64,000 nt of DNA from Actinomycetota bacterium (GTDB lineage Bacteria; Actinomycetota; Thermoleophilia; Gaiellales; Gaiellaceae): NCBI GenBank assembly GCA_003152275.1, contig PLZU01000009.1, positions 14,655-78,654 of the forward strand. The letters run 5' to 3'. This document shows positions 8,684-28,765 of this stretch, one piece after another (position 1 is the stretch's first letter; the number at the start of each line of letters is the position of its first letter). The translations under genes and the position numbers were made by a program. Under the pieces are notes generated by a model. That model was not told the origin of the DNA, did no database searches, and worked only from the letters and a program-made list of their open reading frames with translations.

Positions 8684-8988
8684 TCGCGCGGGTGTGGCGC
8701 GGCGCGACGCGCGCGGAGGACGGCGAGGAGTACGCCGCGTACGTCGAGGAATCGGGCACGGGGCCGGCGCGCAAGCTACCGGGCTCGCGCGGGACGCTCG
8801 TGCTGCGCCGCACGAGCGGGGATCTGGCCGAATTCGAGACGATCATCCTGTTCGACTCGCTCGACAACGTGCGCGCGTTCGCCGGCGACGACCTCGAGGC
8901 GGCGGTGTTCTTCCCGGAGGACGACCGCTATCTCGTCGAGCGCGACCTCTGGGTCAGCCATCACGAGGTCGACGTCCATATGGTGTAG
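8680..8988 (+). CDS. Antibiotic biosynthesis monooxygenase-like small protein
   Basis: IARVWRGATRAEDGEEYAAYV...ETIILFDSLDNVRAFAGDDLE; 4-bp overlap with upstream cupin gene. Confidence 0.55.
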   Translation: MIARVWRGATRAEDGEEYAAYVEESGTGPARKLPGSRGTLVLRRTSGDLAEFETIILFDSLDNVRAFAGDDLEAAVFFPEDDRYLVERDLWVSHHEVDVHMV

Positions 8989-8991
8989 AGC

Positions 8992-9083
8992 GGAGCGGCC
9001 GGGCCTGGTGGCCCAACCGGTCTTCAAAACCGGTACGCCGGCGTAACCCGCCGGTAGGTCAGTTCGACTCTGGCGCCGCTCCG
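8992..9083 (+). tRNA. selC: tRNA-Sec (anticodon TCA)
   Basis: 8-bp acceptor GGAGCGGC/GCCGCTCC, D stem GGGCC/GGCCC, anticodon stem-loop CCGGT-CTTCAAA-ACCGG, long variable arm CCGGCG-TAACC-CGCCGG, T arm GTCAG-TTCGACT-CTGGC (8+5 architecture), discriminator G. Confidence 0.95.
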
Positions 9084-9084
9084 T
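9020..9084 (+). repeat. selC 3'-end direct repeat, copy 1 (in the intact tRNA)
   Basis: GTCTTCAAAACCGGTACGCCGGCGTAACCCGCCGGTAGGTCAGTTCGACTCTGGCGCCGCTCCGT. Confidence 0.95.
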
Positions 9085-9102
9085 CGCGCAGGATTCAGTG
9101 CT

Positions 9103-9960
9103 CTACGGCAACGAGTTGGCGGCGCGTTGCTTCGCATGTTCCGCAAATGCAGTCGTCGCCTCCACACTGCCTGCTCTCGGAGGGTCGTTGGGATCCCACC
9201 CGAGCGCCCGGTCATCGAGCACTTGCTGGATCAGGTCGCGCCACGCCGGGTTCAGCGCATCCTGCGCCCACTCGAGCGACGCCTGCTTCGACGCGACCTC
9301 GGCGGTATCGAGCGTGTACAGCATTCGGCACAGGGTCGTCACGGCGTAGCGCTGCGCCCACGCAATGTCGAAACTGATCCAGCTGAACAGGTCTGGCAGG
9401 AAGCTCTCGATCAGTTGTCGCATCCTGCGACGGAGCGCGTCTGCGGGAACCTCGGCGACGAGCTCACGTGGGTCGGGACCGGCGAGCGTGATCCCGCACT
9501 CGCGGAGCGTCCATCTCACGTCTTCGGTGTTGCAGTGGGTTGACCACTGCATCTCCCGCCAGCCGTGGTCGATGTAGAGCCACTGCTTGTCGAGAGCCGC
9601 GAGTGTCTCAAGCTCCGCCCTCGGCGCGTACGAACCTTCGAGATGGTGCGTCCAGTGCCCGGAACGGGTTGGAATCTCGTCGTGGATCTGACGAAGCGCT
9701 CGTTCTTGCTCCGCCGAGACCTGAGCCTCAGTGACAACCAGAAAGTCGCAGTCGCTGTAGAGATCACCGGCTCCGAGCGCGAAGGAGCCGGTCAGGTAAG
9801 CACCGAGAAAGTTGTCCGCGAGGATCGACTCGACGCGCTCCACGAGTTCCCGCAACAGCTCGTTCAGTTCTGGAAAGACCGTCGGCGGCGACGCCGCTCC
9901 CCATGCAGCAGACACCGCTGCATTCAACATCACCCATTCCGATGCCCGCCCGGGGGACAT
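9103..9960 (-). CDS. Nucleotidyltransferase/aminoglycoside adenylyltransferase-like protein
   Basis: LGAYLTGSFALGAGDLYSDCDFLVVT nucleotidyltransferase motif; start uncertain (ORF open to 10089). Confidence 0.65.
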   Translation of the reverse strand: MSPGRASEWVMLNAAVSAAWGAASPPTVFPELNELLRELVERVESILADNFLGAYLTGSFALGAGDLYSDCDFLVVTEAQVSAEQERALRQIHDEIPTRSGHWTHHLEGSYAPRAELETLAALDKQWLYIDHGWREMQWSTHCNTEDVRWTLRECGITLAGPDPRELVAEVPADALRRRMRQLIESFLPDLFSWISFDIAWAQRYAVTTLCRMLYTLDTAEVASKQASLEWAQDALNPAWRDLIQQVLDDRALGWDPNDPPRAGSVEATTAFAEHAKQRAANSLP

Positions 9961-10072
9961 TCCCGAACTCAATGTGGTGAGTACTGCGGACCGGCGCAAA
10001 TCTTGGCGCGCACCCTCCCGCTCGAACACGCAACCCCGGCATCCGTGCGGCTTTGCGCGAATCACAATGCCT

Positions 10073-10137
10073 GTCTTCAAAACCGTCACGCCGGCCTAAC
10101 CGGCCGGTAGGTCAGTTCGACTCTGGCGCCGCTCCGT
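10073..10137 (+). repeat. selC 3'-end direct repeat, copy 2 (61/65 identical)
   Basis: GTCTTCAAAACCGtcACGCCGGCcTAACCgGCCGGTAGGTCAGTTCGACTCTGGCGCCGCTCCGT. Confidence 0.95.
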
Positions 10138-10233
10138 TTCGTCGAGCACTTGCGCTGTACCCATTTGGGGGATGCAGCCCCGGGACTTCCGAAGATCATT
10201 CGAGGGAATTCGTCCCCCTCGGAGAAGGGTCAC

Positions 10234-10326
10234 ATGAAACTGCGGCTTACACGTTCGCTCTATGTACTCGCTGTGATTGTGTCGTTCGCCCTCGCAGCTG
10301 GTGCGGGCAAGAAATTCGGCGGATAA
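10234..10326 (+). CDS. Putative secreted micro-peptide (30 aa)
   Basis: MKLRLTRSLYVLAVIVSFALAAGAGKKFGG*; SD-like ggagaaggg upstream; signal-peptide-like hydrophobic core. Confidence 0.45.
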   Translation: MKLRLTRSLYVLAVIVSFALAAGAGKKFGG

Positions 10327-10390
10327 CGCGGGCGTAGCTTGTGCGCGCGTGTGAAGTCTGCTCGCGCGCGCGCGCGCCGATAAACACAGC

Positions 10391-12580
10391 ATGAGGGTCT
10401 CAGCCAAAGCTTTCGAGCGTTGCCTCGGCGCGCTGTTCTGGCTTCCGCTCGTGGTGGCCCTCTTTGTCGAGCGGTCGGCTCTCCCCTCGCTGGCCACGAT
10501 CGCGCCAATCCTCGCGCTCGCCGTGATCGGCGAAGAGCTGGTGGTGAATCAGCGGCAGCGCCCCGAAGGCGCGCTTCTTTCCTTCTCGGCGGTCGCTCAT
10601 GTCGCAGCCGTGTTCGTGCTCGGCCCACTCCCGGCGGGAGCGATCGCGGCTATCGGTGTTCTCGTTTCCGACGGGACCCGGCGCGAAGGGCGTCGATACC
10701 TGCTCGTCAACTCTGCGATGTTCGGCGGCTCGACCGTCCTTGCCGGCTATGTCTTCATCCTCGCCGGCGGACACCCGGGAGAGATCGGGACATCTACGTT
10801 GCCGGCGTTGGTCGCAGCTGTCGCGATGCGCTACCTCGTCACCTCGACGGTGTTTTCGCTTGGGACATCTCTGAGCTCGAAGGCGCCCTTCAGCGTGGTC
10901 TTCCGGGAAACAGTGGTCGAGGAGATCTCATCCGCCGCCCAGGAAGGCAGTCTCGGGATCCTGATCGCGTACTCGATCTCGAACCATCAGTGGATCGTGC
11001 TGCCCTTCCTACTGCCACTGTTCGCGGCGATCTACCGCTCGAGCGCAACCTACGAGCAACTAAAGGAAGAAACGGCTGCCGCGCTGGAAGCCGTCGCCGA
11101 AGTCGTCGACGAACGCGACCCCAGCACCGCGGAGCACAGTGAGCGCGTCGCACGCTGGGTCCGTCAGTTCACGGAAGCAATCGGTCTGCCATCGCGAGAG
11201 AGTGCGCGTCTGATTGCAGCCGCGCGGCTTCACGATCTCGGAAAGATCGGCGTCGACGTGCAGACGCTTGCGAAAACGGGTCGGCTCGACGCACGCGAGC
11301 TGGCCTCGATCCGCGGACACCCTCGTCTGTCGGCCCGCCTTCTTGCCCCGTTCCACTTCGCGCGTGAAATGTCTCGCTATGTCGAGCTCCATCACGAGCG
11401 ATTCGACGGACATGGGTACTACGGCGTGCCAGGCGAGGATGTACCAATCGAAGCTCATGTCCTGATTGCCGCAGACAGCCTCGACGCGATGACCTCCGCG
11501 CGGCCGTATCGCCCAGCCTTGTCTCTTGAAGAGGCAGCCGCAGAACTAAGGCACAAGGCAGGCAGCCATTTCCAGCCTGACGTCGCCGCGATCTTTGCCG
11601 CCATCGCTAGCGGCACGGCGGCCACGCACGTGCTCGAGGAGCATCAACTCGGCGCTTTGCGCAGCTCTTTCTCTCGTATCCCGGTCGCCTCCATTCCCGA
11701 TTTGCGGCCCGTGAGCTCACGGATCTTGGTGCTCTGCCTAGCGGTGATCTCCCTGCTCGTTTTCGGCGAAGACAGGATTCCGCTGGCGACACGCGCAGCG
11801 GTCGTCGGCGCGGCTGTCTGTGTCGGCGCCATTGCAGCCGTCAAGGCCGTTCTCGGTCTGAAACGCGAACGTTCAGCCCTACGCGCGCTCGACGCAGGCG
11901 CATCACCCGCATCGGTCCTCGCACACGCAGGGATGAACGGATGGCTTGCGGTGCTCGAAGTGGACGCCGACGGAGGCGGCTACGTCGCCCGGCCGATCGA
12001 TCGAACGGCCGTCGCCGGCAACGACCTGCGTGAGGCCTGCTCTGGCGCACATCGGCACGGGACCGCCGCATATCGAGCAGAGAGCGGGACATGGCTCGTC
12101 GTTCGTTCACGAGAAGCCTCCACCCGTGTCGCTGCCGGATTATCCCGCCGTCCCAACGCACGACAACTCCGCGTCCTACAAGCGCTGACCGATCGCCTCG
12201 CGGAAGCAACGATGCGTGACACCGAGGTTGAGACAGGTGACGCGATCGTCCAGGCGACGATGCGCGTCGAGCTCGGGATGTACGAACCTGTCCGGCGGCG
12301 AGCAGGGCAGCTCGTCGCGGAGCAGCTCGTTGACGAGGCAGAGCGCCGGCTCAACGCTCTCGCAGGTCTGGGCGGCTCCCTTGTTCGCAGCGGCGACGAC
12401 AATTTTGTCGTCTCCGTTTCCGTTCGAAGCGAAGACGCACTCAATCGGCTTTGCAAAGAGGTAGCTGCACAACTCGCACAGATCCCGCTCCCACGCGGCA
12501 CGATGCCGATCTCGCCGCGCCTGCGCGCCAGTGTCACGGAGAACGAGTCTGTCGTAACGCCACTCCAGGCGGTCGGATAG
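10391..12580 (+). CDS. Membrane HD-GYP-type phosphohydrolase-like signalling protein (729 aa)
   Basis: N-terminal TM helices, then TAEHSERVARW...ARLHDLGKIG...HHERFDGHGYYG...AADSLDAMTSARPYR. Confidence 0.8.
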   Translation: MRVSAKAFERCLGALFWLPLVVALFVERSALPSLATIAPILALAVIGEELVVNQRQRPEGALLSFSAVAHVAAVFVLGPLPAGAIAAIGVLVSDGTRREGRRYLLVNSAMFGGSTVLAGYVFILAGGHPGEIGTSTLPALVAAVAMRYLVTSTVFSLGTSLSSKAPFSVVFRETVVEEISSAAQEGSLGILIAYSISNHQWIVLPFLLPLFAAIYRSSATYEQLKEETAAALEAVAEVVDERDPSTAEHSERVARWVRQFTEAIGLPSRESARLIAAARLHDLGKIGVDVQTLAKTGRLDARELASIRGHPRLSARLLAPFHFAREMSRYVELHHERFDGHGYYGVPGEDVPIEAHVLIAADSLDAMTSARPYRPALSLEEAAAELRHKAGSHFQPDVAAIFAAIASGTAATHVLEEHQLGALRSSFSRIPVASIPDLRPVSSRILVLCLAVISLLVFGEDRIPLATRAAVVGAAVCVGAIAAVKAVLGLKRERSALRALDAGASPASVLAHAGMNGWLAVLEVDADGGGYVARPIDRTAVAGNDLREACSGAHRHGTAAYRAESGTWLVVRSREASTRVAAGLSRRPNARQLRVLQALTDRLAEATMRDTEVETGDAIVQATMRVELGMYEPVRRRAGQLVAEQLVDEAERRLNALAGLGGSLVRSGDDNFVVSVSVRSEDALNRLCKEVAAQLAQIPLPRGTMPISPRLRASVTENESVVTPLQAVG

Positions 12581-12581
12581 C

Positions 12582-14393
12582 GTGATTCTGGGAGTTGCAC
12601 TTCTCGCCGGCGTGGTCCTTGCTTGGCTTCTCGGCGCGAAACCATCGCGACTCGTGGATCTGAATCTCCGCGGAGGCCCGTTTGTCTTCGCCGCACTCGC
12701 GATCCAGTTGTGCCTCTTCACTCGCATTCACGGTCATGTGCCCGGCCAGCTCTTCTTGCCTCTCCAGGTAGCGACGTATTCCCTCTTGGCGGTCTTCCTC
12801 ATCGTCAACATGCGGGCTGGTCGCGCGCTCATCCTTGTCGTTCTCGGACTCGTCGCGAATCTGCTGCCGATCTTGACTAACGGCGGCAGAATGCCCATTT
12901 CCCTTTCAGCCTGGACGGCGACCGGGACGCCGCCCGAACTGATCCAACGGACTGGCCACTACGCGAACAACGTCCTCGCCGGCCCGCACAGCCACTTCGC
13001 ATGGCTCGGCGACATCTTCGCGCTCCCGGCGAGTGTCCCCTATGCGAGCGCACTCTCCGTCGGCGACGTGCTGATGACGTTCGGACTTACCGCGTTCGTC
13101 TATCGCGCCTGCATCCGACCCCGGGCTGGCGCACTGCCCCTGCGCATCCTTGAGCCTCTGCGGTTCGACTCGTTCCGAAGCCTGATCATTGGACGAACCG
13201 TCTCCAAGCTCGGCGACTGGTTGACCATGGCCGCAATCGTGACCTGGATCTTCCAGCGCACACACTCAACGTTCGCTGTCAGCGCGTTTCTCGTCGCTCG
13301 CATCGCCGGGATCATCGGAGGCGGCGTGATCGCGGCCCCGCTCCTCAACCGCATCCCCCAGTTCCGAACCCTCTCAACCGTCGAAGCTCTGAGAGGCATC
13401 CTGATGCTGGTGACGCTCGCCTTCGCGAAGCACGGCCTCGTCGCACCCGTCATCGGCCTCGTGTGCCTGTCTTCCATGCTCGGCGCCGCCACGAACCCGA
13501 GCGCGTCGAGCCTCGTGCCGGAACTCCTGCCCGATCGTCTCCTGCATCAGGGCAACGCCCTCCACGGCGTCACCCGAAACGTCGTCATGGTCGCCGGGAC
13601 CGGTCTCGGGGCTCTGTCGATGGGCACCCTAGGGATCGCGCCGTCGCTCCTCATCGACCTGGGAACCTTCGCACTCGCGGCACTGCTCTATTTGCACCTC
13701 AGCGCCAGCGCCGACCCCGTCGGCCCCGAAACGCCGGATGCAGAACCTGCGCAGTCGCGTCGCCAGCTCTTGCGGGGCATCCTGAGTAACCGCGTGATCT
13801 TCGGCCTCACGGCCTCGTTCACCCTCGTGACTGGCGCCATCGGACTCTTGAACGCCTCCCTCCCCCAGTTCCTCGCGCGACAGGTCGCACAACCACAGGC
13901 CTATGGCTACGCCCTGGCCGCCATCGGACTGGGGTTGATGTGCGGAGAGTTCCTGACCGGCTTCATCGAACGCGAGAGCGTCGCTCGCCGATCCGTTGCG
14001 CTGGCTTTCTTTGTCTCCGGCGTCGTCGTCTTCCTCGCCTCCCAATCGACCGTCGCGGCGACGATCTACCTTCTTCTCTTCCTACTCGGGGCAAGCGACG
14101 GGAGCACAGAAGTCGTCTACGACACACTGTTCCAACGGCAACTCCCGCGCCAAAACACCGCCGGCACCTTCGCCCTCGCGTCAGCGATCCAGAACGGCGG
14201 CATGTTGGTCGGCCTCCTCGCCGCTCCGATCGTGCTCCAGACCGGAGACTCGACGACCGCCTTTCGCTTGTCCGCGGTCGGCTGTGTCGTAGGCACGATG
14301 ATTGCCGCCCTTGCGCTCTTCCGCCGACCTCGAGTCGACGAGAATGCGCTGGGCGAAGAGTCTGCCGGCCGCCGTGAACTCTCGCCGGCGTAA
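12582..14393 (+). CDS. DUF5317-like membrane domain fused to MFS transporter
   Basis: N-terminal ~170 aa with LTNGGRMPIS motif; C-terminal MFS (FRSLIIGRTVSKLGDWLTMAAIVTWIF...); GTG start 1 bp after the HD-GYP stop. Confidence 0.7.
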   Translation: MILGVALLAGVVLAWLLGAKPSRLVDLNLRGGPFVFAALAIQLCLFTRIHGHVPGQLFLPLQVATYSLLAVFLIVNMRAGRALILVVLGLVANLLPILTNGGRMPISLSAWTATGTPPELIQRTGHYANNVLAGPHSHFAWLGDIFALPASVPYASALSVGDVLMTFGLTAFVYRACIRPRAGALPLRILEPLRFDSFRSLIIGRTVSKLGDWLTMAAIVTWIFQRTHSTFAVSAFLVARIAGIIGGGVIAAPLLNRIPQFRTLSTVEALRGILMLVTLAFAKHGLVAPVIGLVCLSSMLGAATNPSASSLVPELLPDRLLHQGNALHGVTRNVVMVAGTGLGALSMGTLGIAPSLLIDLGTFALAALLYLHLSASADPVGPETPDAEPAQSRRQLLRGILSNRVIFGLTASFTLVTGAIGLLNASLPQFLARQVAQPQAYGYALAAIGLGLMCGEFLTGFIERESVARRSVALAFFVSGVVVFLASQSTVAATIYLLLFLLGASDGSTEVVYDTLFQRQLPRQNTAGTFALASAIQNGGMLVGLLAAPIVLQTGDSTTAFRLSAVGCVVGTMIAALALFRRPRVDENALGEESAGRRELSPA

Positions 14394-14477
14394 GTCTGGC
14401 ACTTCGCTTAAAAGAGAATCCGGCTCACGACCGAAGTCTGACGCGGCGACGTCCGTCCGATCTATAACTGGCGCGTA

Positions 14478-14542
14478 GTCTTCAAAACCGGTACGCCGGC
14501 GTAACCCGCCGGTAGGTCAGTTCGACTCTGGCGCCGCTCCGT
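14478..14542 (+). repeat. selC 3'-end direct repeat, copy 3 (65/65 identical to copy 1)
   Basis: GTCTTCAAAACCGGTACGCCGGCGTAACCCGCCGGTAGGTCAGTTCGACTCTGGCGCCGCTCCGT. Confidence 0.95.
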
Positions 14543-14651
14543 TACGTCGAATCCGGCTCCTTCGTTGGGAGCGGAGCTTCAGGCATCCATTGGAAGAAAC
14601 AGCCGTCCGAGCCCGTCTAGAGGGGACTGCAACGACGAAGAAGGAAGACTG

Positions 14652-14759
14652 ATGGAGACTCGCAACAAGATCGCAGCGAACACCAACGAAGACATCGTCG
14701 AGGGTGCCCGCAAGCGGCTCGCCAGCAACAGCAGCGAGCACGTCCTCTCCGACAACTGA
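14652..14759 (+). CDS. Hypothetical micro-ORF (35 aa)
   Basis: METRNKIAANTNEDIVEGARKRLASNSSEHVLSDN*; SD aaggaag upstream. Confidence 0.4.
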   Translation: METRNKIAANTNEDIVEGARKRLASNSSEHVLSDN

Positions 14760-14805
14760 TTTGAGCTCCAGGCCGCCTGGCGGATACCTGGGTAAGGGAA
14801 ACAGA

Positions 14806-15108
14806 GTGCTGATCCCCCTCAACCGCCGCTTGCGCGGCGACTTGCATCTCGCGCGGAAGGTAGCCGCCCAGGTCGCCGCTACGGCCGAACGCTTCAACCT
14901 CTCAGCTCGCGAGGCGGAAGTTCTTGCCCTGCTCATCTTGGGCGACAGCAACGCCGAGATCGCCGAGCAGCTCCTCGTCTCTCATAAAACCGTCAAGAAC
15001 CACCTCGGCGCGATCTATGAGCGGATGGGCGTCCGCAACCGGGTCGAGGCGGCGACGGTCACGCTGCTGCGCGAGCTACTTGACACCTCCATTTCATCGG
15101 CCGCGTAG
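14806..15108 (+). CDS. Stand-alone LuxR/GerE-type HTH regulator (100 aa)
   Basis: FNLSAREAEVLALLILGDSNAEIAEQLLVSHKTVKNHLGAIYERMGVRNRVEAA; GTG start with aaggga SD. Confidence 0.8.
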   Translation: MLIPLNRRLRGDLHLARKVAAQVAATAERFNLSAREAEVLALLILGDSNAEIAEQLLVSHKTVKNHLGAIYERMGVRNRVEAATVTLLRELLDTSISSAA

Positions 15109-15118
15109 CCGCACCGCA

Positions 15119-15136
15119 ACTCTGGCGCCGCTCCGT
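15119..15136 (+). repeat. selC 3'-end direct repeat, copy 4 (18 bp)
   Basis: ACTCTGGCGCCGCTCCGT. Confidence 0.85.
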
Positions 15137-15152
15137 TAGGCGCGATCCAGCT

Positions 15153-15815
15153 TTACGGCCTCTTTGGTTGGACGACACCGGCGTCGTAGGCGACGATGAC
15201 GGCTTGCACGCGGTCGCGAACGCCGAGCTTTCGTAAGAGGTTCGAGACGTGGGTCTTCACGGTGGTCTCGCTGACGACGAGCGTCGACGCGATTTCGGCG
15301 TTGGAGAGACCGCCTGCGAGAAGTCGAAGGGTTTCCGATTCGCGGTCGGTTAGCGATCCAACCGCAGCGGTATCCGCTGGGCGCGCGGCAATCGTGGTGG
15401 AGAATCGCTCGAGCAGTCGCTCGACGGCGGTCGGCCCGAGCAGTGCGTTCCCGCTTGCCACGACGCGTATCGCGTCGACGAGCTCGCCGGGGCGCACGTC
15501 TTTGAGCAGAAAGCCGCTGGCACCGGCTCGGACGGCTCCGTACACGTACTCGTCGAGATCGAAGGTTGTGAGCACGAGGATTCGCGTGGCGCTGCCGGAG
15601 GCGACGATTCGCTTCGTGGCCTCGATGCCGTCGAGGTTCGGCATTCTGATGTCGAGCAGGATCACGTCCGGTTCGAGCTCTTGGACGAGAGCAACGGCCT
15701 GCTCGCCGTCTTCCGCTTCGCCGACGACCTCGAGGTCGGGCCTTCCCTCGACGATCAGGCGAAAGCCGCTGCGAACGAGCGCCTGATCATCGGCGATCAC
15801 GACTCGAATGGTCAC
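15153..15815 (-). CDS. NarL/LuxR-family response regulator
   Basis: IRVVIADDQALVRSGFRLI...VILLDIRMPNLDGIEATKRI; C-terminal LTDRESETLRLLAGGLSNAEIAS HTH. Confidence 0.93.
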   Translation of the reverse strand: MTIRVVIADDQALVRSGFRLIVEGRPDLEVVGEAEDGEQAVALVQELEPDVILLDIRMPNLDGIEATKRIVASGSATRILVLTTFDLDEYVYGAVRAGASGFLLKDVRPGELVDAIRVVASGNALLGPTAVERLLERFSTTIAARPADTAAVGSLTDRESETLRLLAGGLSNAEIASTLVVSETTVKTHVSNLLRKLGVRDRVQAVIVAYDAGVVQPKRP

Positions 15816-16933
15816 GTGGCCTTGTCGAGCGGGATCTCCGCCGCGACGCGGTAGCCGCCGCCCGGTGCGGGGCCGGCTGCGAGGACGCCGCCGAGGAGCG
15901 CGACGCGCTCGCGCATTCCGACCAGCCCGTTTCCGCCCGTACGGTCCCCGGTTTCCGCGTTGCCGGCTCCGTCGTCGCGGATCTCGAGCTCGAGTCTGTC
16001 GCTGTAGCGGATCCGGACGCGTACGTGCTCCGCGTCGGCGTGCTTGAGACTGTTCGTCAGGGCTTCTTGAACGATCCTGAACGCGGAGAGCTCGACCGCT
16101 GCCGACAGTGGTTGCTGCTGACCTTCGATCTCCAGGGAGACGTCGAGGCCGGTTGCGCGAACCTGGTCGATCAGCCGGTCGAGTTGGTCGAGTCCCGGTT
16201 GTGGCTCGTACTCGGCGGAATCGTGGAAGATCCCGAGTACGCGGCGGAGGTCGGCGAGCGCGGCGCGGGCTGCGGAGTCGATCGCGCGGATCGGCTCGCG
16301 CGCTCGGGCGGCGTCGAGCTCGAAGGCGTCGTCGGCCGCGCCGGCCTGGACGACGATGACGCTGAGCGCGTGCGCGATGACGTCGTGCAGCTCGCGGGCG
16401 ATGCGTGCCTGCTCTTCCGCGGCTGCGCGCCTCGCTTCGCTTTCTCGCTCCCGCTCGAGCCGGTCCGCCTTCTCCTCGATCTCGCGGACGTAGGCGCGGC
16501 GCGAGCCGATGCTGTCTCCGAGCAGCGCTGCTGCGATCAGAAAGACGACGCGGGCGGCGCCGGCGCCAAACTCGATCCCGCCGACGGAGAGGACGGCGAT
16601 CGCGACCGCGAGAATCGCGCCGATTCCAACCGCTCGCTCGACACGTTGTTCACGAACAGACGTGAGCGTGTAAAGGGCGACGCCGAGCTGGAACGGTAGA
16701 ACCCAAACGCCTAGAGCGATCGTTGCGAGCACGACGGATGTCACGACGATGACCACACCGACCGGGAAGCGGCGCCGAAAAAGTAGAGGCGCTGCTTCGG
16801 CGATGCTGAGCACGATCGCCGTCGCCTCCGCGTGCTCGTTTCTGATCGCGGCGCCGATCCCGAGGAAGACAAGCAGCCCGACGATCGAGACGTCGACGAG
16901 CCGCGGGTGACGGTGGAGCCAGCTCCAGATCAT
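15812..16933 (-). CDS. Sensor histidine kinase (HisKA_3/NarL-type)
   Basis: EEQARIARELHDVIAHALSVIVVQAGAA, IVQEALTNSLKHADAEHV, GNGLVGMRERVALLGG. Confidence 0.93.
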   Translation of the reverse strand: MIWSWLHRHPRLVDVSIVGLLVFLGIGAAIRNEHAEATAIVLSIAEAAPLLFRRRFPVGVVIVVTSVVLATIALGVWVLPFQLGVALYTLTSVREQRVERAVGIGAILAVAIAVLSVGGIEFGAGAARVVFLIAAALLGDSIGSRRAYVREIEEKADRLERERESEARRAAAEEQARIARELHDVIAHALSVIVVQAGAADDAFELDAARAREPIRAIDSAARAALADLRRVLGIFHDSAEYEPQPGLDQLDRLIDQVRATGLDVSLEIEGQQQPLSAAVELSAFRIVQEALTNSLKHADAEHVRVRIRYSDRLELEIRDDGAGNAETGDRTGGNGLVGMRERVALLGGVLAAGPAPGGGYRVAAEIPLDKAT

Positions 16934-16978
16934 CGAGGCTCCACCGTAACCCGCGTCGCTGTTGTATGCAGTCCGCCG

Positions 16979-17809
16979 CTAGGTGTCGCGGTGCACGAGC
17001 AACACCGCGGCGACAGCGACCGCCACTGCGCAGTAGCCGAGCATGAGCAGCCCGCCCCCGAGCGGCGAGAGCGAATGCGCCCCATGATGCAGGGAAAACA
17101 GCTGCCGCCCCGCGTCACTTGGCAAGTACTTGCTGATCGCGTTGTTCCAGTTCGTCGGCAGCACGTTCATTAGCGGTGGCAGGACGAAGAAGACCCCCGC
17201 AAACGTCGCGATGCCGCCGGCCGTGCTCCGCACGATCGAACCGATACCGAGCGCGAAGATGCCTACGAGGGTCACGAAGAGGGCGCCACCAAGCAGCGAC
17301 CGCGCAACTCCCGGATCCCCGAAGGAGATCTGCAGGATGTGATGTCTCGAGAGAATCGCTTGGCTTGCGAAGAACGCGATCAGCACCAACGGGATCATCA
17401 AAACGAACGACACGGTCCCAAAGACCGCGAGCTTCGCCCACAGAACAGGAAGCCGCTTGGGGACCGCGATCAGCGAGGAGCGGATCATTCCGGTCGAGTA
17501 CTCGCCGGTGATCACGAGCACGCCGAGGACGGCGATGGCGAGTTGCGCGACGTTGACGCCGGCAAGCGCGATGTCGAGCGGATGCCGACCGGCCCGATCG
17601 CCCGCCGACATGTGCGACCAACGCGACGCGGTCACGACGGCGAACAGGATCGGGAAGGCGATCGTGAGCAGGCTCCCGACTCCAAGCGACCAGCGCGTAG
17701 AGCGGAGCGAGACAAACTTCGTCCACTCCGACAGCACCACCCGAGCCTGAGTGACTCGCCCCCGCTCGGTGAGACGTGGGATCGAGACGGATACCGTTGC
17801 GTTGCTCAT
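16979..17809 (-). CDS. ABC transporter permease
   Basis: Multi-TM ABC-2-type permease (VLSEWTKFVSLRSTRWSL...ITGEYSTGMIRSSL). Confidence 0.85.
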   Translation of the reverse strand: MSNATVSVSIPRLTERGRVTQARVVLSEWTKFVSLRSTRWSLGVGSLLTIAFPILFAVVTASRWSHMSAGDRAGRHPLDIALAGVNVAQLAIAVLGVLVITGEYSTGMIRSSLIAVPKRLPVLWAKLAVFGTVSFVLMIPLVLIAFFASQAILSRHHILQISFGDPGVARSLLGGALFVTLVGIFALGIGSIVRSTAGGIATFAGVFFVLPPLMNVLPTNWNNAISKYLPSDAGRQLFSLHHGAHSLSPLGGGLLMLGYCAVAVAVAAVLLVHRDT

Positions 17810-18744
17810 GCCGCCAGCTCCTCGCGCTCAGTGACGCCAGACTCGACCGGCTTGAACTCCACCTCGTCGCGCGTCAACTCCATGAATGCCTCCTCCAACG
17901 ACGCCTGAACCGGCGTCAACTCGTGCAGAACGATCTTGTGCGAAGCGGCGATCTCGCCAATCTGCTCCGCCGTCAACCCTTCCACCTCGATCACGCCCGA
18001 CTCGCTGCTCGCCACCGAGACATGAGGCCCAAGCACAAGCTCGCGCAAGCGAGTCGCTTCGGGCGAGCGCACCCGAACCAGTGCACCCGACGCCTTCTGC
18101 ACGAACTCGTCGACGCTCATGTCCGCGATCAGCCTGCCGCGCCCGATCACGATCAAATGATCGGCAGTGAGCGCCATCTCGCTCATCAGATGCGACGAGA
18201 CGAACACAGTCCGTCCCTCGGCCGCCAGCTGCTTCAGCAGGTTACGGATCCAGTGGACGCCTTCTGGGTCGAGCCCGTTCACCGGCTCGTCAAGCATCAC
18301 CGTCGCCGGATCGCCCAGCAAGGCCGTCGCGATCCCGAGCCGCTGGCCCATTCCGAGGGAAAACTGCCCCGCACGTTTCCGCGCCACCTCGTGGAGGCCG
18401 ACGAGGTCGATCAACTCGTTCACGCGGCGGCGGGGAATGCCCTGCGTCTGCGCGAGCGCGAGCAGATGGTTGTAGGCCGATCGGCCCGTATGCACCGAAC
18501 GCGCCTCGAGCAGCGCCCCGACCTCATGCAGCGGCGACGCGTGGTCACGGTAATGCTTCCCGTTGACACGCACATCACCCGCCGTCGGAGCATCCAACCC
18601 GAGAATCAGCCGCATCGTCGTCGACTTCCCAGAACCGTTCGGCCCCAGAAAGCCAGTCACGATGCCCGGACGAACCGTGAACGAGATGTCGTTCACCGCC
18701 CGCTTCTCACCGTAGTCCTTCGTTAGTTTCGTGGCTTCGATCAT
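17806..18744 (-). CDS. ABC transporter ATP-binding protein
   Basis: Walker A GPNGSGKST, signature FSLGMGQRLGIATALLGDP, Walker B VMLDEPVNGLDP. Confidence 0.93.
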   Translation of the reverse strand: MIEATKLTKDYGEKRAVNDISFTVRPGIVTGFLGPNGSGKSTTMRLILGLDAPTAGDVRVNGKHYRDHASPLHEVGALLEARSVHTGRSAYNHLLALAQTQGIPRRRVNELIDLVGLHEVARKRAGQFSLGMGQRLGIATALLGDPATVMLDEPVNGLDPEGVHWIRNLLKQLAAEGRTVFVSSHLMSEMALTADHLIVIGRGRLIADMSVDEFVQKASGALVRVRSPEATRLRELVLGPHVSVASSESGVIEVEGLTAEQIGEIAASHKIVLHELTPVQASLEEAFMELTRDEVEFKPVESGVTEREELAA

Positions 18745-18831
18745 GATCTGACCGTAGCCACGGATCACCGCCCGCGCCTCGGCCGTCAGAACGAACTTTG
18801 TCTCCTCCAAAGGTAGGAACCTCCGCGCCGC

Positions 18832-18861
18832 TAGGTCAGTTCGACTCTGGCGCCGCTCCGT
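18832..18861 (+). repeat. selC 3'-end direct repeat, copy 5 (30 bp)
   Basis: TAGGTCAGTTCGACTCTGGCGCCGCTCCGT. Confidence 0.93.
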
Positions 18862-19024
18862 AGAAAGTCAGCCGCCGGCCTCGTCTACTCGAGGCGTTTC
18901 CTCCGGCGCCAAGCACCTGGCCGGCGGAAGCGAGCATGAACCTCGGCAGGCACCGAGGTGTGTACGCCACGGGTGGAGGGTCTCCCTTCCCCGTATCGAG
19001 ACACATCGGAGGTTCGAGCTATGC

Positions 19025-20299
19025 ATGCCACACCAGGGCGCTGGGCGGGCGGTAATCGCCGTCGCAGTCGTCGCCGCATTCGCCTCGCCGGGAGCGGCGC
19101 GCGCGGATGCTGTGACCGACTGGAATCTCATCGCGAATACCGCGATTTTCTCGACAGGGCCGACGGCGCATGCCGCCACTCTCAGCACCGCGATGGTGCA
19201 CGGCGCCGTCTACGACGCGGTCGACGCGATCGCCGGGGGTTACCGTCCATATCTCCCCACGCCGGCGGCAGACCCGCTGTACTCGCAGGACGCAGCGGCG
19301 GCGACGGCGGCCTTTCGCGTCGCCTCGGCTCTCGTCCCGACACAGCTGGCAACCCTCCAGACGCGGTACGACGCGTCGCTCGCCGCGATAGCCGACGGGG
19401 CCGCGAAGGCCGGCGGGATCGCAGTCGGTGAAGCTGCTGCTGCCGCGATGCTCGCGGCCCGTGCGCACGACGGTCGGAATGGCGCGTTCACGTTCGTACT
19501 CGGCACGACGCCCGGCGCCTAGCGGCCATCGCCGCCCTTCTTCGCCCTCGATCCGACGCCGTGGGTAGGCAACGTGACGCCCTTCCTGCTCCCGAACGCT
19601 GCGATGCTTCGCTCGGACGGACCCAACGCGCTGAAGAGCAAAGCGTACGCCGACGACTTCAACGAAGTGAAGTCGCTCGGCTCGTTGACGAGCACGACGC
19701 GGACCGCGGACGAGACGATGGCCGCGATCTTCTGGCAGGCGCAGCCAGGAGGACTGTACGGCGGCGTGATGCGGTCGCTATCGGCGCGGTTCGGGTTGAG
19801 CACCGCGGAGAACGCCCGCCTGTTCGCAATGGTGAGCCTGGCGACGGCGGATGGCGCGATCGCCTGCTGGAACGACAAGTACTACTGGAACTTCTGGCGG
19901 CCGATCGACGCGATCCACGAGGCAGCGTCCGACGGGAACCCGAAGACCCAGGCAGATCCGAACTGGAAGCCGCTGTTCGACCCGTCGACCCCAACCGTTC
20001 CGGCCCTGTCGACGCCGGCGTTCCCGGACCATCCGTCTGGGCATAGCTGCGTGAGCAGCGCGAGCCTCAACGCGATGAAGGACTTCTTCGGCACGGACAA
20101 GATCGCGTTCGACATCGTGAGCCCGCGGTTCCCCACGCAGCCCAGGCATTACGACCGGTTCTCACTCGCGCTCAAGGAGGTCATCGACGCGCGCGTCTGG
20201 GGCGGAATCCACTTCCGAACCGCGGACGAACAGGGCGCGGTAATCGGCAAGAAAGTCGCGCACTGGGAGCGGAAGCACTACTTCCAGCGCGTCCGCTGA
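19025..20299 (+). pseudogene. Vanadium-dependent haloperoxidase/PAP2-like protein with in-frame TAG at 19520
   Basis: Two same-frame ORFs (19025-19522, 19574-20299); readthrough gives TTPGA*RPSPPFFALDPTPWVGNVTPFLL; PAP2-type FPDHPSGHSCVSSA and GGIHFRTADEQG. Confidence 0.7.
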
Positions 20300-20320
20300 C
20301 CGAAGCGGCCCAGGCAAAGC

Positions 20321-20347
20321 GGCGGCGCGCGTCTCGAGCGCGCCGCC
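20321..20347. terminator. Hairpin between convergent genes
   Basis: GGCGGCGCGC-gtctcga-GCGCGCCGCC. Confidence 0.6.
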
Positions 20348-20383
20348 ACAACGCCGCTCACGCGAACAACACGCGAAAATAGC

Positions 20384-22693
20384 TCAGCCGCCGACGGTCA
20401 CTCGGTACGCCGCGACCGTTTGGCCGTTCAGTGTTCCGGCATACCGGAAGACGAAGTGCCCGTCCTGCAGACGGCCGTCGACGGTTCCGAGCTCCGTCCC
20501 ATCGGATGCCATCGCCGTCGCCGTGAGAGCGCGGCCGGAGCTCCACGCGGCGGGCGGCTCGACTCCGACGTCGGAGTCGGCACCGACAGGCTGGCGTACG
20601 GTCACGCTCGCTGCATCGCGCTCGACGATCACGTAGTGCACGCCTGCCGAAAGAGGAACGCCGTCGAATGAGCCCTCGAAGGCCCCCGCGAGCAGGTCGG
20701 TCGCGGCAGTCCGCGCGAGAAACCCGCCGGGCGCAACGTCGTAGCCAGCGACGGAGTAGCCGCTTGGCGCCCTGTTCGCCACGACGGAGAGATCGCCGTA
20801 CGTGCTCTCGTTCACGTCGGGTGCGAGGTTTCGGTAACCGGAGAGAGGGATGCCGACATAGTGCGGGCCGAAGTCGCGCTGCAGACGTGAGACGAGATCG
20901 AGCCACGGGTTCTCGGCTGGGCCGAGCGCGTCCCAGCTGTACGAGTTGACCATCCCGAACGCCATGTTCCACGTCAGCACTTCAAGGTCGGCCGCCATCG
21001 TGCCGTCGTAGAGGTCGTGCTGGTAGAGCAGCACCTTGTCGTGGAAGAGCCACGTGGCGAGCGGGTACGGCTGCCAGTTTCCGACGCCGAAGTACGTATT
21101 CGGGAGGTCGAGCTCACGGGACATCATCAGCAGGCTGCCGTGAAAGCCGACCGCGTCGCGCGCAAGCCTGTCCCACCCGTCCTCGACCATCACGCATCGA
21201 TCCGAGTAGGACGCCAGCACCGCCAGCCAGCCGTCGTCGTACGAGGTCGGTGTCGGCGATGCCGGGTTGAAGTCGCGAAGCCAAGGCCGCGCCCCAAGCT
21301 GGTCCAGGAACACGCAGTCGGCCGGAACCTTCGTCTGCCAGTCGGCCATGTACTGCGCGATCCGCTGGCGCACGAACGCGGAGAACGGAGAGACGATCAC
21401 GCCGGTGTGATCTCCGTAGGAGATCGTCGCCGGATTGCCGAGAGCGTCGAGCACGGCGACGTCTTTCGTCTGGACGCCGGCGGGAAGCGACTGCATCGTC
21501 GGAGAGCTCGGGTCCCACCAGCTGAGATTCCCGTAGGGCATCACGAGGTCGCCAAGCCGGTGCGCCGCCGCGATCATCGCGCTGAAATCTGCACTGGTGC
21601 CGAAGCTCGGATCCGGCGGCAGGAAGTCGGGGTCGTTCACGTCGAACCCGCCGACCTGGTAGCCGACCGGATGCAGGAGCAGCGGCGATGGAAGCCGCTG
21701 CAGTTCTGCCGCCCAGTCGCTGAACGGCTTGAGCAAACGGAGATTCGCTTTGAACAGTGGAGCCTCGGCATACGTGCTCAGCTGCGCACCGAGCTTGCTC
21801 TGCAACGACGGGTACGCGTCGATCCCGTTGTCGTGCCGGTACGCGAGGATCGACTGCTCGGCCGTAGCCCCGATTCGAATGCGAACGACGGGGCTCGTCC
21901 AGGTCGCGCCTCGCTTGATCCACGTCTGGAACTCGTGGACGACGCAGAACGACGAGCCGGAGCAGGGCGCCGGCGCCGCCGAGTGGAGGAAGCCGAGCTG
22001 CACCGGATAGAGCGGGCCACGCGAGATCGAGTAGACAGAGAGGTGCGCGGCGCCAACGTCGAGCGCGAGATAGTCGGCGAAGGCCCAACGCGACGGGTAG
22101 AGCTGAACGTCGTTGCCCACCCGTGAGAAGAACGCCGGCGCGAGGAGCACGCCGGGCAGAACAGTCGGAGCGTATCCCGCTGTCACCGTTGCCGTGTCGG
22201 CCGCGAGGGACTCCGGGAACTCGACGCGGGTCAGAACACCGCCGGGGTTCTCGATCCGCAGCTGCAAGTCGAGGAGCGTTGGGCGTGCGCGCACGGTGAC
22301 GACGGCCAACCCGCGATACGTGAGCGTCAGCGTCGCCGTGGCGCGATTCCAGCTATAGGAGAAGCGGCGCGCCGCGCGTGGCGCGAACGAGCAGCCGCCG
22401 AAATAGGACCGGTTGCTGTTCGCCGCGACGCCCCAGAGGCAACGGTTCGTATTCCGGGCGAGACGCAATCCACTCGCCCGGTCGACGAGGCCGAGAATCT
22501 TGCCGTTGCGCTTGCTGAGCGTGAGGCGGTACGTCTTCGTCGTGATCACCAGGCGGCCCGCTGCCCGGTCGTCGAACGCGGCCGCGGGGGACCGCCGCGG
22601 CGCGGAGAGCGCTCCGTGACTCGACACAGCCACCGTCAGGATCGTGAGGACGGCTACGACCGCCCACGACTTGTTGCGACCCCGTCCACGCAC
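20384..22693 (-). CDS. Secreted glycoside hydrolase-like protein (DUF6259-like)
   Basis: Signal sequence SWAVVAVLTILTVAVSSHGALS; TIM-barrel-like VFLDQLGARPW; ORF open to 22771, GTG at 22693 proposed. Confidence 0.55.
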   Translation of the reverse strand: MRGRGRNKSWAVVAVLTILTVAVSSHGALSAPRRSPAAAFDDRAAGRLVITTKTYRLTLSKRNGKILGLVDRASGLRLARNTNRCLWGVAANSNRSYFGGCSFAPRAARRFSYSWNRATATLTLTYRGLAVVTVRARPTLLDLQLRIENPGGVLTRVEFPESLAADTATVTAGYAPTVLPGVLLAPAFFSRVGNDVQLYPSRWAFADYLALDVGAAHLSVYSISRGPLYPVQLGFLHSAAPAPCSGSSFCVVHEFQTWIKRGATWTSPVVRIRIGATAEQSILAYRHDNGIDAYPSLQSKLGAQLSTYAEAPLFKANLRLLKPFSDWAAELQRLPSPLLLHPVGYQVGGFDVNDPDFLPPDPSFGTSADFSAMIAAAHRLGDLVMPYGNLSWWDPSSPTMQSLPAGVQTKDVAVLDALGNPATISYGDHTGVIVSPFSAFVRQRIAQYMADWQTKVPADCVFLDQLGARPWLRDFNPASPTPTSYDDGWLAVLASYSDRCVMVEDGWDRLARDAVGFHGSLLMMSRELDLPNTYFGVGNWQPYPLATWLFHDKVLLYQHDLYDGTMAADLEVLTWNMAFGMVNSYSWDALGPAENPWLDLVSRLQRDFGPHYVGIPLSGYRNLAPDVNESTYGDLSVVANRAPSGYSVAGYDVAPGGFLARTAATDLLAGAFEGSFDGVPLSAGVHYVIVERDAASVTVRQPVGADSDVGVEPPAAWSSGRALTATAMASDGTELGTVDGRLQDGHFVFRYAGTLNGQTVAAYRVTVGG

Positions 22694-22712
22694 CGTGCCT
22701 GATGATGCCTGT

Positions 22713-24176
22713 GTGGGCGCGCCTAGAACGATCCTGCCGCTGATCGCCGCCGCCGCTCTCCTCACGGCCACTTCGTCCGGCGCGACGGGACGAGTGCCTC
22801 AGGGATTCGCGGACTCGTTCGTCACGCGCTCGGGGCCCCGGCTCGCGGTCGACGGCCGCCCGTTCCGGTTCGGCGGGGCCAACATCGAATGGCTCGGAGT
22901 CGCAGGCTACGGGCCTTCCGACCCGAGCGGCCCCCACTTCCCGAGCCACTACGAAGTCGACGACGCCATGGCCACCGCCCGGGAAATGGGCGTCACAGTC
23001 GTCCGCAGTCAGACGATGGGCGACTCGGTCGGCTGCGATGCCTGCATCGAGCCGACGCTCGGCCAGTTCAACGAGGCTGCCTTCGAGCACATCGATTATG
23101 CACTCGCATCCGCGCGTGCGCACGGCATCAAGATCATCCCGACAATCATCGGAGACGACGCGCGCGACGGCGGGACGGGCTGCGTCTATCTCCGCTGGCG
23201 TGCCATCTCGCAGTCGGGTTGTTCGCTGATCAACATGGCGCCGTTCTGGATCGACCCGACCGTGATCGGCGACGTCGAGGCGCACATTGCCGCAGTGCTG
23301 AACCACGTCAATGTCTACACGCACCTGGCGTACAAGGACGATCCGACGATTCTTGGGTGGGATCTGCTGAACGGCGGCGGCAGCCCGGTCGCTTGGACGC
23401 GCGAGATCGTGTCCTACATCCGCGGCATCGATTCGCGCCATCTCATCCTCTCTGGCTACACGAACGCGGGAATCCACGGAGTCGATGCGTGCGTCAGCTT
23501 CGTCTATCCGCACTGGCTGATGGGACTTGCCGTCGTGCAGCCTTGGATCGCAAAGTGCAAGCGCGAAGGGAAGCCGTTCATCGTCTACGAGTACGGCTGG
23601 GATCGCACGAACTATCCGACGCTGAGCAAGTTCACCGGCTTCCTCGACACGCTCCTCCATACGCCTGAAATCGCCGGTGACGGGTTCTGGGCGCTCGAGT
23701 CGCACAACGACGGGCACGGGTGGATGCCGATCCCGGCGAACACGAGCGACCCGGCTGCGGCAAAGCACATCGAGAGCGGCCAGTGGTGGGCTCTCTACTA
23801 CCCGGGAATCCGAACGCTCGTCAGCACGGCGGCCGACATGAGCGCCCGCGCACAGGCGATCCGACGGCACAACTACGCGATGGGCGGCATCCGCGTGCCG
23901 GCGCACGCGATCCCGCCCGCGCCGATTGTGACGTCAGTTCGACGCGGACGGGTCTACTGGCAGGGCTCGGCCGGCGCGAAGGACTACAGCATCCAGCGCG
24001 CTTCGAGCTCGAGCGGACCGTGGAAGACCATCTGCCGGCGGTGCGTGACTGACGTCGACGACGGATTCGCCGACGTCGGCGCGGCCGCGGACGGCGCCTG
24101 GTACCGCGTGATCCCGTACAACCTCGACGGCAAGCGCGGGCCCGTGTCGAAGGCGAAGCAGTCGTCGCCCGGCTGA
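22713..24176 (+). CDS. Glycoside hydrolase family 5-like (mannanase-type) secreted protein
   Basis: DGRPFRFGGANIEWL, ILGWDLLNGGG, FIVYEYGW, GDGFWALESH; signal peptide; GTG at 22713 proposed (ORF from 22644). Confidence 0.7.
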   Translation: MGAPRTILPLIAAAALLTATSSGATGRVPQGFADSFVTRSGPRLAVDGRPFRFGGANIEWLGVAGYGPSDPSGPHFPSHYEVDDAMATAREMGVTVVRSQTMGDSVGCDACIEPTLGQFNEAAFEHIDYALASARAHGIKIIPTIIGDDARDGGTGCVYLRWRAISQSGCSLINMAPFWIDPTVIGDVEAHIAAVLNHVNVYTHLAYKDDPTILGWDLLNGGGSPVAWTREIVSYIRGIDSRHLILSGYTNAGIHGVDACVSFVYPHWLMGLAVVQPWIAKCKREGKPFIVYEYGWDRTNYPTLSKFTGFLDTLLHTPEIAGDGFWALESHNDGHGWMPIPANTSDPAAAKHIESGQWWALYYPGIRTLVSTAADMSARAQAIRRHNYAMGGIRVPAHAIPPAPIVTSVRRGRVYWQGSAGAKDYSIQRASSSSGPWKTICRRCVTDVDDGFADVGAAADGAWYRVIPYNLDGKRGPVSKAKQSSPG

Positions 24177-24182
24177 GCGACG

Positions 24183-25454
24183 TCAGGAGATCCAGGTGCC
24201 ATGTGCGAAGCCCACGGCGGCGAGCACTCCGACAGCTGCAAAAGACGCGATGACGATTGCGCGCAGACGCGGGCGCTTCTCCGCCAAAACCGCGAGCGTC
24301 ACGAAGAGCGGAAAGTCGCCGATGAGGAAGCGCGGCTCGCTCACCAGCGGCACGACTGCGGCCGGCGCGCTCAGGAAGAGGATGATCGTCGTAGCCGAGT
24401 AGAGCGCCGCGGCGCGGTCGACCTTCTTCCAACAGAGCCACGTGAGTGCGCATGCGGCGACGAGCAGCACGAGCTGGGCGACATTCCAGATCGCGAACTG
24501 CTCAGGTTTCCCGAATCCGGAAGGTGTGCCACTGCCCGCAGGCAGATGCAGAACGAGTTGCGCGAGCCCCTGCTCGCCGGACTTCAACGCGTCCCATGCA
24601 CCGCCGAGCGGGCCCGCCGCGGGAACGTGCCGGAGCCAGAACGACCCCTCCGAGTGAACGAAGGCGAAGGCGTCGCCGAAATGGGAGCTCAGGTACAGGC
24701 AGTAGCTGCCGAGCGCCGCCGGCAGCAGTAGCAACGGGCTCAGCCGAAGCAGCGACCGGAAGCTACGCCCTTCAGGCCAGAGGAGCCAGAGCAGCGCAGG
24801 GACGAGCGCGAGCCCGGTCGGGCGTGTGAGCACGGCCAACGCTCCCAGCAGAGCCGCGAACGTCGCTCGACCGTCGAGCGCGAACACGAAGGCCCAGGCC
24901 GCGAGCGCCAGGAACAGGCCATCGGAGTACACCGCGGTGAAGACGAAACTGATCGGATACAGCGCGAGGAAGAGGACCGAGTCGTGCGCGACGCGGCCGC
25001 CCGCATACCGCCGAGCGATCCGCGCCACGGCGACGCCCGCGAAGCCGGCGGCGGCGAGCGAGATGGCCACGCCGGCAACGAGGTTCGACCGGAGCACGAA
25101 CGCGAGCACGCGCGTCAGCAGCGGGTAGAGCGGGAAAAAGCTCGCGCTCTGCTTCGTGTCGTAGCCGTGCTGCGCGATCCGCAGAAACCAGTTTGCGTCC
25201 CACTGGTCGAACGCACCGAAGATGAAATCCGTGCGCGAGCCGTAAGCCGTGTGCTCGGGGAAGCCCGAACGGAGCGGAGCCCAGAGTAGGGCGACGAGGA
25301 CTGCCGCCCAGCAACCGGCTCGTGTCGCGACGACGACCCAGAACGGACCGGCAGACGCACGGCGGAGGGCGCGAACGGCCAACCCCGACAGCCTCTCAGA
25401 GCTGTCGGAGATCCGCGGCGAGCCGGCCGCAGCTGCGAGCGGCCGCTCACACAC
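24183..25454 (-). CDS. Membrane mannosyltransferase-like protein (PIG-V-like)
   Basis: FDQWDANWFLRIAQHGYDTKQSASFFPLYPLL; multiple TM helices. Confidence 0.7.
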   Translation of the reverse strand: MCERPLAAAAGSPRISDSSERLSGLAVRALRRASAGPFWVVVATRAGCWAAVLVALLWAPLRSGFPEHTAYGSRTDFIFGAFDQWDANWFLRIAQHGYDTKQSASFFPLYPLLTRVLAFVLRSNLVAGVAISLAAAGFAGVAVARIARRYAGGRVAHDSVLFLALYPISFVFTAVYSDGLFLALAAWAFVFALDGRATFAALLGALAVLTRPTGLALVPALLWLLWPEGRSFRSLLRLSPLLLLPAALGSYCLYLSSHFGDAFAFVHSEGSFWLRHVPAAGPLGGAWDALKSGEQGLAQLVLHLPAGSGTPSGFGKPEQFAIWNVAQLVLLVAACALTWLCWKKVDRAAALYSATTIILFLSAPAAVVPLVSEPRFLIGDFPLFVTLAVLAEKRPRLRAIVIASFAAVGVLAAVGFAHGTWIS

Positions 25455-25461
25455 ATTGGCT

Positions 25462-25485
25462 ATACTGAACTAAGTGGTTCAGTAT
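25462..25485. promoter_or_regulatory. Perfect palindromic operator overlapping the ArsR start
   Basis: ATACTGAAC-TAAGTG-GTTCAGTAT, 9-bp arms, contains GTG start at 25474. Confidence 0.6.
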
Positions 25486-25812
25486 CCACAGATCGACCGG
25501 ACCTTCGCCGCACTCGCGGATCCCACGCGCAGGGGCGTGGTCGAGCACCTTGGCCGCGGCAGCGCGACGATCAGCGAGCTCGCCGAGCCGTTCGGAATCT
25601 CGCTCACCGGAATGAAGAAGCACGTGCGGCGGCTCGAGGACGCCGGAATCGTCACCACCGAGAAGGTGGGCCGGGTCCGGCGGTGCAGCCTCGGCCCGCA
25701 GCGCCTCGAGGACGTTCACGAGTGGATCGAGCTGTACCGGCGGATGCTGGACGAGCGCCTCGACCGGTTCGGGGAGCTACTCGAACGCACGACGAAAGGA
25801 GACCCGCAATGA
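25474..25812 (+). CDS. ArsR-family HTH regulator
   Basis: IDRTFAALADPTRRGVVEHLGRGSATISELAEPFGISLTGMKKHVRRLEDAGIV. Confidence 0.92.
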   Translation: MVQYPQIDRTFAALADPTRRGVVEHLGRGSATISELAEPFGISLTGMKKHVRRLEDAGIVTTEKVGRVRRCSLGPQRLEDVHEWIELYRRMLDERLDRFGELLERTTKGDPQ

Positions 25813-26297
25813 CCCCCGACCAACAGCAGGCGCGCGCGGCCACCGTCACGACGCCTACCGACCGCGAGATCCACGTCGAGCGCGTGTTCGACGCGCCACG
25901 AGACCGAGTGTTCGCGGTCTTCACCGACCCAAAGCTCATTCCCGAGTGGTGGGGCCCGACCACCGTCGTCGATCAGATGGACGTCAGGCCCGGCGGGAGC
26001 TGGCGGTTCGTCAGCCAGAACCCCGACGGCAGCGAGATCGCGTTTCGGGGCACCTACAGCGAGGTCACCCCGCCCGAGCGCATCGTGCAGACCTTCGAGA
26101 TGGAAGGCATGCCGGGTGGTGGCCACGTCCAGACCTTCGCCTTCGAGGATCTCGGCGACCGCACAAAGCTCACAACCACCTTGCTCTTCAACACCACCGA
26201 GGACCGCGACGGCTTGCTCGCATACGGCGGGGAAAGCGGGATGAACGAGACCTACGCTCGCCTCGACGAACTCTTCGCGAGGCTCACGTCCAACTAG
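25809..26297 (+). CDS. SRPBCC/AHSA1 family protein
   Basis: IHVERVFDAPRDRVFAVFTDPKLIPEWWGP; 4-bp overlap with ArsR gene. Confidence 0.9.
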   Translation: MTPDQQQARAATVTTPTDREIHVERVFDAPRDRVFAVFTDPKLIPEWWGPTTVVDQMDVRPGGSWRFVSQNPDGSEIAFRGTYSEVTPPERIVQTFEMEGMPGGGHVQTFAFEDLGDRTKLTTTLLFNTTEDRDGLLAYGGESGMNETYARLDELFARLTSN

Positions 26298-27411
26298 CGG
26301 GTTGAAGGGAAGCCGGGCAGCGTGCGCGGCTTCCCACTACCTGGAATCTGTGCACGTCGGGCTTCGAGAAGGTCGGCGTCAGCGCGGGCGAGCAACTCTT
26401 GCAGCGTGTCGTCGCGGTCAGCTTCGGCAATGCCGAACGTGGCCGAGTGCTCTGGGCTGACTACGGTCAATACTGCAGCGATCTTCTCGAAGCGTGTCCT
26501 TGCTTCGCCTGTGCTCAGGTTGGACATCGCGCAGACGAACTCGTCGCCGCCGTAGCGCACGATCAGGTCGTAGGGCCGGACATTCGCGCGAAGGGTCTCG
26601 CCAACAAGCTGCAACAGCGCGTCGCCGGCGAGATGCCCCTGACCGTCGTTGACCTGTTTGAGGCCGTCCACGTCGACGAACGCGAGCACGAGCGTGCCGC
26701 CCGTTCGATGCGCGCGTTCGAGCTCGCGCGACACCTCCTCGAGGCCGAACATGCGCGTCCGCGCGCCCGTCAATTCATCCGTCGTCGCGCGCTTCAAGTC
26801 GGCTGCAGATTCGGTGCGGTTCCGGACCGCCTCAGCGCGCTCGCGGGCTGCCGATTCCCGGTCGACGGCCGCTCGGGCGCGGTCGTTCGCTGCCTTGACC
26901 CGATCGGCCGCCGCCCGCGCCCGATCGCGCTCGGCCCGCACGACAATGTCCTCCGGACTCGCGTCCGCGTCCGCGTCACTCTGCAGATCGTGCAGCCGAG
27001 CCAGCGCATCACGAGACTCGGCGCCCCGATCACGAAGGACGGCGGCGCGATCACGATCCTCCGCCGCGTGGAGCCGCGCCACAGCACTCTCGTCGCGCAA
27101 CGCGACACGGTCTCGCGGTCGTGACTCGACCGCTCACGCGCGACGGCACTGCGGTGATGGGTGGCCGCGTCGCCACCGGCCGCGAGCTCATCGTCAGCAG
27201 CGTGCTGATCCTCGTCCGCACTTCGCTGGTCGCGCTCGCTCGCCGTCTGGTCGTGATCCGACCACGTTTGATCCTGATCGCTCGCCGTCTGATCGTGATC
27301 TGACGACGTCTGATCTTGATCAGCCGCGCCCGCAAAGACTTCGGCGCCACAGGACGGGCAGTTCGGAACCTCCGTTGCCGCGCCGCAAGCTGGACAGACA
27401 GCGTTCGCCAT
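26294..27411 (-). pseudogene. Zinc-ribbon + DQ-heptad-repeat + GGDEF diguanylate cyclase, apparent frameshift near 27110
   Basis: MANAVCPACGAATEVPNCPSCGAEVF then (D.DQT.S)n in one frame; MRDESAVARLHAAEDRDRAAV...TTDELTGARTRMFG...YGGDEF in another (26294-27100). Confidence 0.7.
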
Positions 27412-28718: not shown

Positions 28719-28733
28719 GTCAAAGAGGCTCGG

Positions 28734-28759: not shown

Positions 28760-28765
28760 TGCTGA

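Follow-up and report, generated by a model that had tools for sequence, protein, structure and literature searches.

The selC locus and its array of 3' pieces

The window, that is, the whole stretch of 64,000 nucleotides analysed here, contains one whole tRNA gene, selC, and SelB is encoded elsewhere in the same genome. Four displaced pieces of the 3' part of this gene follow in line with it, all on the + strand, each ending as the tRNA 3' end plus GT (Table 1). Sequence shared between the pieces begins at CTTCAAA or 1–2 nt ahead of it, in the window copies as well as in those of relatives. Variable-arm matches number three in the window, against 0.13 expected by chance. In fragment 5, the most distant remnant and perhaps the oldest, the 3' strand of the variable arm reads CGCCGC and is closer to that of G015 (CACCGC) than to that of the resident gene (CGCCGG). 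Comparison of the right flanks of the five pieces, resident included, gave weak similarity, at most 12/20.

Table 1. Features of the selC locus, in window positions.
Feature	Position	Strand	Remarks
Resident selC (tRNA-Sec)	8992..9082	+	anticodon TCA; ARAGORN 8988-9082; RF01852, 61.1 bits
Resident selC 3' half	9020..9084	+	from the anticodon arm, plus GT; unit repeated downstream
Module E1	9085..10072		about 1 kb, one gene
E1 gene	9103 to about 9930	-	AadA_C/NTP_transf_2 nucleotidyltransferase-like
Copy 2, displaced selC 3' half	10073..10137	+	variable-arm G-C to C-G; GGT to GTC at positions 43-44
Module E2	10138..14477		
E2 HD-domain protein	10391-12580	+	
E2 DUF5317/MFS protein	12582-14393	+	
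Copy 3, displaced selC 3' half	14478..14542	+	identical to the resident 3' half over 65 nt
Module E3	14543..15118		0.6 kb; additional short ORF upstream of the HTH ORF
E3 LuxR-type HTH ORF	14704-15108	+	
Fragment 4	15119..15136	+	3'-terminal 18 nt of the repeat, from the T loop to CCGT
Module E4	15137..18825		
E4 response regulator	15153-15815	-	
E4 histidine kinase	15812-16933	-	
E4 membrane protein	16979-17809	-	probable ABC permease; no Pfam match
E4 ABC ATPase	17806-18810	-	
Fragment 5	18826..18861	+	most distant remnant

The pieces delimit four modules, E1 to E4, none of which encodes an integrase: contig C36 has no PF00589 match, and no credible tblastn match to the integrases of relatives was obtained. 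Integrase homologues exist elsewhere in G000 (C88 and C99), and no tie between them and selC was established. The nearest homologue of the E1 gene within the family, in G068 (77% identical), sits away from any tRNA. In the relatives that we fetched, the region downstream of selC contains nothing that closely matches the E genes.

Upstream of selC the gene order is common to congeners; synteny breaks off at selC, and the downstream sequence differs. The distance from selC to dnaB is 2.5–7.5 kb in congeners versus 27 kb here, and dnaB and purA together lie within a few kb of selC in congeners versus 27–29 kb in the window. The insert is thus missing from the same site in relatives, as indicated by the synteny stop and the nearer dnaB. 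Between fragment 5 and the conserved dnaB/purA block, a further stretch of about 15 kb (18862-34300) holds no selC remnant and is absent at this place in congeners.

The array and the way it was built are well supported as tandem insertion at a tRNA gene, an ordinary and already well-known process. A small DNA module would enter selC site-specifically, and crossover in the anticodon loop would join the host 5' half to a 3' half borne by the insert. The gene would thereby stay whole while its earlier 3' half is displaced downstream; repeated insertion would yield the order selC-E1-copy 2-E2-copy 3-E3-fragment-E4-fragment, in which copy 2 would be a former 3' half left behind. Both the enzyme, presumably a tyrosine recombinase, and the order of events are inferred. 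An element restoring the tRNA 3' end, as the initial annotation had proposed, agrees with what we observed in related genomes, where inserts supplying their own 3' half recur, some of them with integrases.

Copy 2 and the search for a matching selC

The 65-nt alignment of copy 2 with the resident 3' half (9020-9084) is gap-free and shows four differences (G14T, T15C, G24C, and C30G). The resident variable arm reads CCGGCG-TAACC-CGCCGG and that of copy 2 CCGGCC-TAACC-GGCCGG; the alignment therefore confirms the compensatory G-C to C-G swap previously reported in this arm, which affects the pair closing the loop. The two further changes reported at the edge of the anticodon stem (GGT to GTC) were also found, and correspond to tRNA position 43, in the last pair of the stem, and to position 44. 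If joined to the resident 5' half (ACCGGT), the ACCGTC of copy 2 would leave 26-44 and 27-43 unpaired. It is complementary throughout to GACGGT, which forms the selC 5' half in the relatives G042 and G046, and folding of copy 2 gave -57.4 kcal/mol with the GACGGT 5' half versus -52.3 kcal/mol with the resident one. As in a functional selC allele, the variable arm and the T arm of copy 2 are paired; its loop-closing pair is not the G-C of the class selC.

Simulations that placed four random substitutions in the 3' half produced a compensatory pair, while breaking no other, in 0.6–1.2% of runs. Chance is thus a poor account of the set (about 1%), in line with the earlier argument that a decaying fragment should not keep its pairing. 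Put as a rule, this argument is too strong: a hairpin-templated mutation could preserve pairing, and other displaced copies do decay.

No selC with the CCGGCC/GGCCGG arm was present among 103 genomes of the family, and an exact 19-mer scan for the arm in 84,980 species genomes did not find one either. Six 19-mer matches were returned by the scan, none of them at a tRNA. In viral contigs there was no match to the arm, nor to a general pattern of the selC 3' half. The pair closing the variable-arm loop is G-C in every selC that we read. Across 399 genomes of the class, searched with motif patterns that fix the loop as YARNC and cover G-C and C-G as closing pairs, the C-G version occurred once, in copy 2, and the G-C version in 125 genomes.

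The initial annotation had taken copy 2 to come probably from a functional selC of another lineage. ACCGTC does fit a 5' half present in other genomes of the family. Derivation from a known functional selC of another lineage is not supported: no donor turned up in the 103 family genomes, the 84,980 species genomes, or the viral contigs, and the closing pair is otherwise G-C. The same annotation had made its proposal depend on a selC with this arm existing somewhere. None has been found so far, which is not decisive: the species collection holds one genome per species, so a selC with the arm of copy 2 is possible in an unsampled strain.

Displaced 3' halves in related genomes

At least eight of the fetched genomes of the family and order (G058, G067, G073, G050, G064, G052, G092, and G106) have displaced 3' halves that start with CTTCAAA downstream of selC, and displaced selC 3' halves were also found in other families of the class. 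A tyrosine integrase is located inside the selC interval in G058 and G050, is frameshifted in G106, and is reduced to remnants in G029 and G052. Integrases related to that of G058 were seen near tRNA-Ser genes in other genomes (L121-L124).

We compared each of 17 gap-free displaced copies against a resident 3' half, which for G214 was the sequence common to its congeners G168, G178, and G188; 13 of the copies were variant. Paired differences between resident and displaced halves were observed in G058 (three, at L055), G067 (one, at L060), G050 (one, at L169), and copy 2 of the window (one). These six compensatory pairs in 13 variant copies compare with 0.12–0.14 expected, and six were reached in 0/20,000 simulations. 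The count excludes copies of G052, G064, G188, G214, and G324 that carry indels or are truncated; these show that decay happens as well. In G188, a displaced copy (L151 oriented minus, 13640) reads ACCAGC and complements the host 5' half GCTGGT exactly, to which the resident ACCGGT can pair only with a G-T wobble. Because of the paired differences in the variant copies and of this complementary copy in G188, we conclude that the swapping of one paired selC 3' half for another within the class is real.

Several other arrangements were noted in these genomes. A conserved left arm, GACNNGYACCGAA, stands ahead of CTTCAAAACC in selC 3'-half copies of G188 (L150-L152), G214 (L153-L154), and G178 (L162), and the GACNNGYACCGAA-CTTCAAAACC arrangement occurs at 11 places in four genomes, including G121, among 398 searched. 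The fetched stretches carrying the GACNNGYACCGAA left arm gave no integrase match. Two long PF00589 matches, which may be XerC/XerD, and three serine recombinases occur elsewhere in the G188 genome. In G017 (L167), two very different selC 3' halves, both paired, are separated by 3.5 kb, and the contig begins at the first.

Displaced tRNA halves are usually taken as decaying markers of island ends. Several of those described here are alternative, fully paired alleles, and the displaced half of G188 suits the 5' half of its host better than the resident half does. Mobile modules are therefore able to replace half of a working RNA gene by a foreign version. The array retains a record that could be read by strain comparison. 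A broader view, which we offer as a speculation that is probably wrong in at least some part, is that across the class selC evolves in part by taking new 3' halves from mobile modules. Displaced halves would then be fossils of past alleles, kept in order, with forms outside the present range like copy 2 among them, and modules without integrase would be cassette-like arrays moved in trans.

Origin of copy 2 and likeness to known systems

We consider copy 2 to be, with somewhat better than even chances, a displaced alternative 3'-half allele of selC from an unsampled source rather than a product of decay after displacement. The lineage of this allele would have carried a selC with the 5' half GACGGT, and the allele may have entered with E2 or as part of a composite insert. 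Besides the G-C closing pair of every selC read and the failure to find this arm in any selC, it speaks against this reading that the stack order would require alleles A, B, and then A again, and that a selC with the copy 2 half would lack the 26-44 and 27-43 pairs in this host. The alternative that copy 2 started as the resident sequence and changed after its displacement is possible but clearly less probable. The swap would then be due to chance or to hairpin-templated (quasi-palindrome) correction, a route in which one mutation is followed by correction and a compensatory pair arises even if tRNA function is not under selection. Such a history suits the location of the swap at the tip of the hairpin that a GC-rich palindrome forms, the C-G closing pair seen in no selC that we read, and the decay of other displaced copies, by indels or truncation in G052 and G064 and by broken pairs in G092 and G188. 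However, chance seldom yields such a set, as the simulations indicated, and the other two changes of copy 2 also complement an existing 5' half. Moreover, copy 3, which is more distant from selC and of equal or greater age under the stack model, is unchanged and fits poorly with drift of copy 2.

E1, copy 2, and E2 may also have arrived jointly, as a composite insert with the resident allele as its attachment sequence, a scenario to which we give roughly one chance in three at best. Copy 2 would in this case be an internal scar, never part of the selC of this host. A joint arrival is compatible with either account of the sequence of copy 2. It removes the need for an A-B-A succession, and the identity of the resident half and copy 3 over 65 nt is expected if a single insertion of a host-type element parted them; yet the E1-copy 2-E2 block was found in no relative, and its genes are equally without close match downstream of selC there. 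An artefact of assembly or strain mixture, in which 65-nt repeats of a draft genome were joined across strains, is very improbable. The draft is fragmented (105 contigs, 86% complete) and in relatives, too, contig breaks fall at these repeats (L015, L024), but here all five pieces share a single 83.5-kb contig with unique flanks, and relatives, including G058 with an assembly of 5 contigs, have the same arrangement.

The locus resembles the islands catalogued by Islander (PMC4383910), which lie in tRNA and tmRNA genes whose 3' end is restored. It shares with them a regenerated tRNA gene with displaced 3' fragments in the same orientation (selC and its four 3' pieces), a repeat that opens in the anticodon loop, a crossover subsite, and thus the corresponding crossover class, as well as a tandem array. 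Unlike in Islander islands, each of which must contain an integrase gene, the window modules have none, and there are paired changes between the displaced half and the regenerated one. With attachment-type repeats at their ends and no integrase, the modules have the make-up of cis-mobilizable elements, which are att-flanked and devoid of integration or transfer genes. Integron cassettes, defined by attC sites and an IntI-type integrase, were also considered; the repeats here are selC 3' halves, and no integrase accompanies the window modules. The tandem ssrA islands of Dehalococcoides (PMC3146451), 15 of which carry no integration module and may, as was suggested, be cis-mobilizable, similarly follow one another downstream of a single RNA gene and are bounded by its 3' end; they differ by their tmRNA target, their 20 bp repeat, and their serine recombinase. 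Integration-derived partial tRNA genes (PMC9897764) also place a partial copy across the island from the full gene. In the section of that work consulted, a 1-bp difference is noted for the partial tRNA copy of one element and no paired allele differences are described, unlike here. Finally, the extra tRNA-Sec genes predicted by Secmarker (PMC5330540) are additional copies that differ from the best one by paired changes; those are whole-gene predictions, whereas the copies described here are displaced 3' halves that bound inserts.
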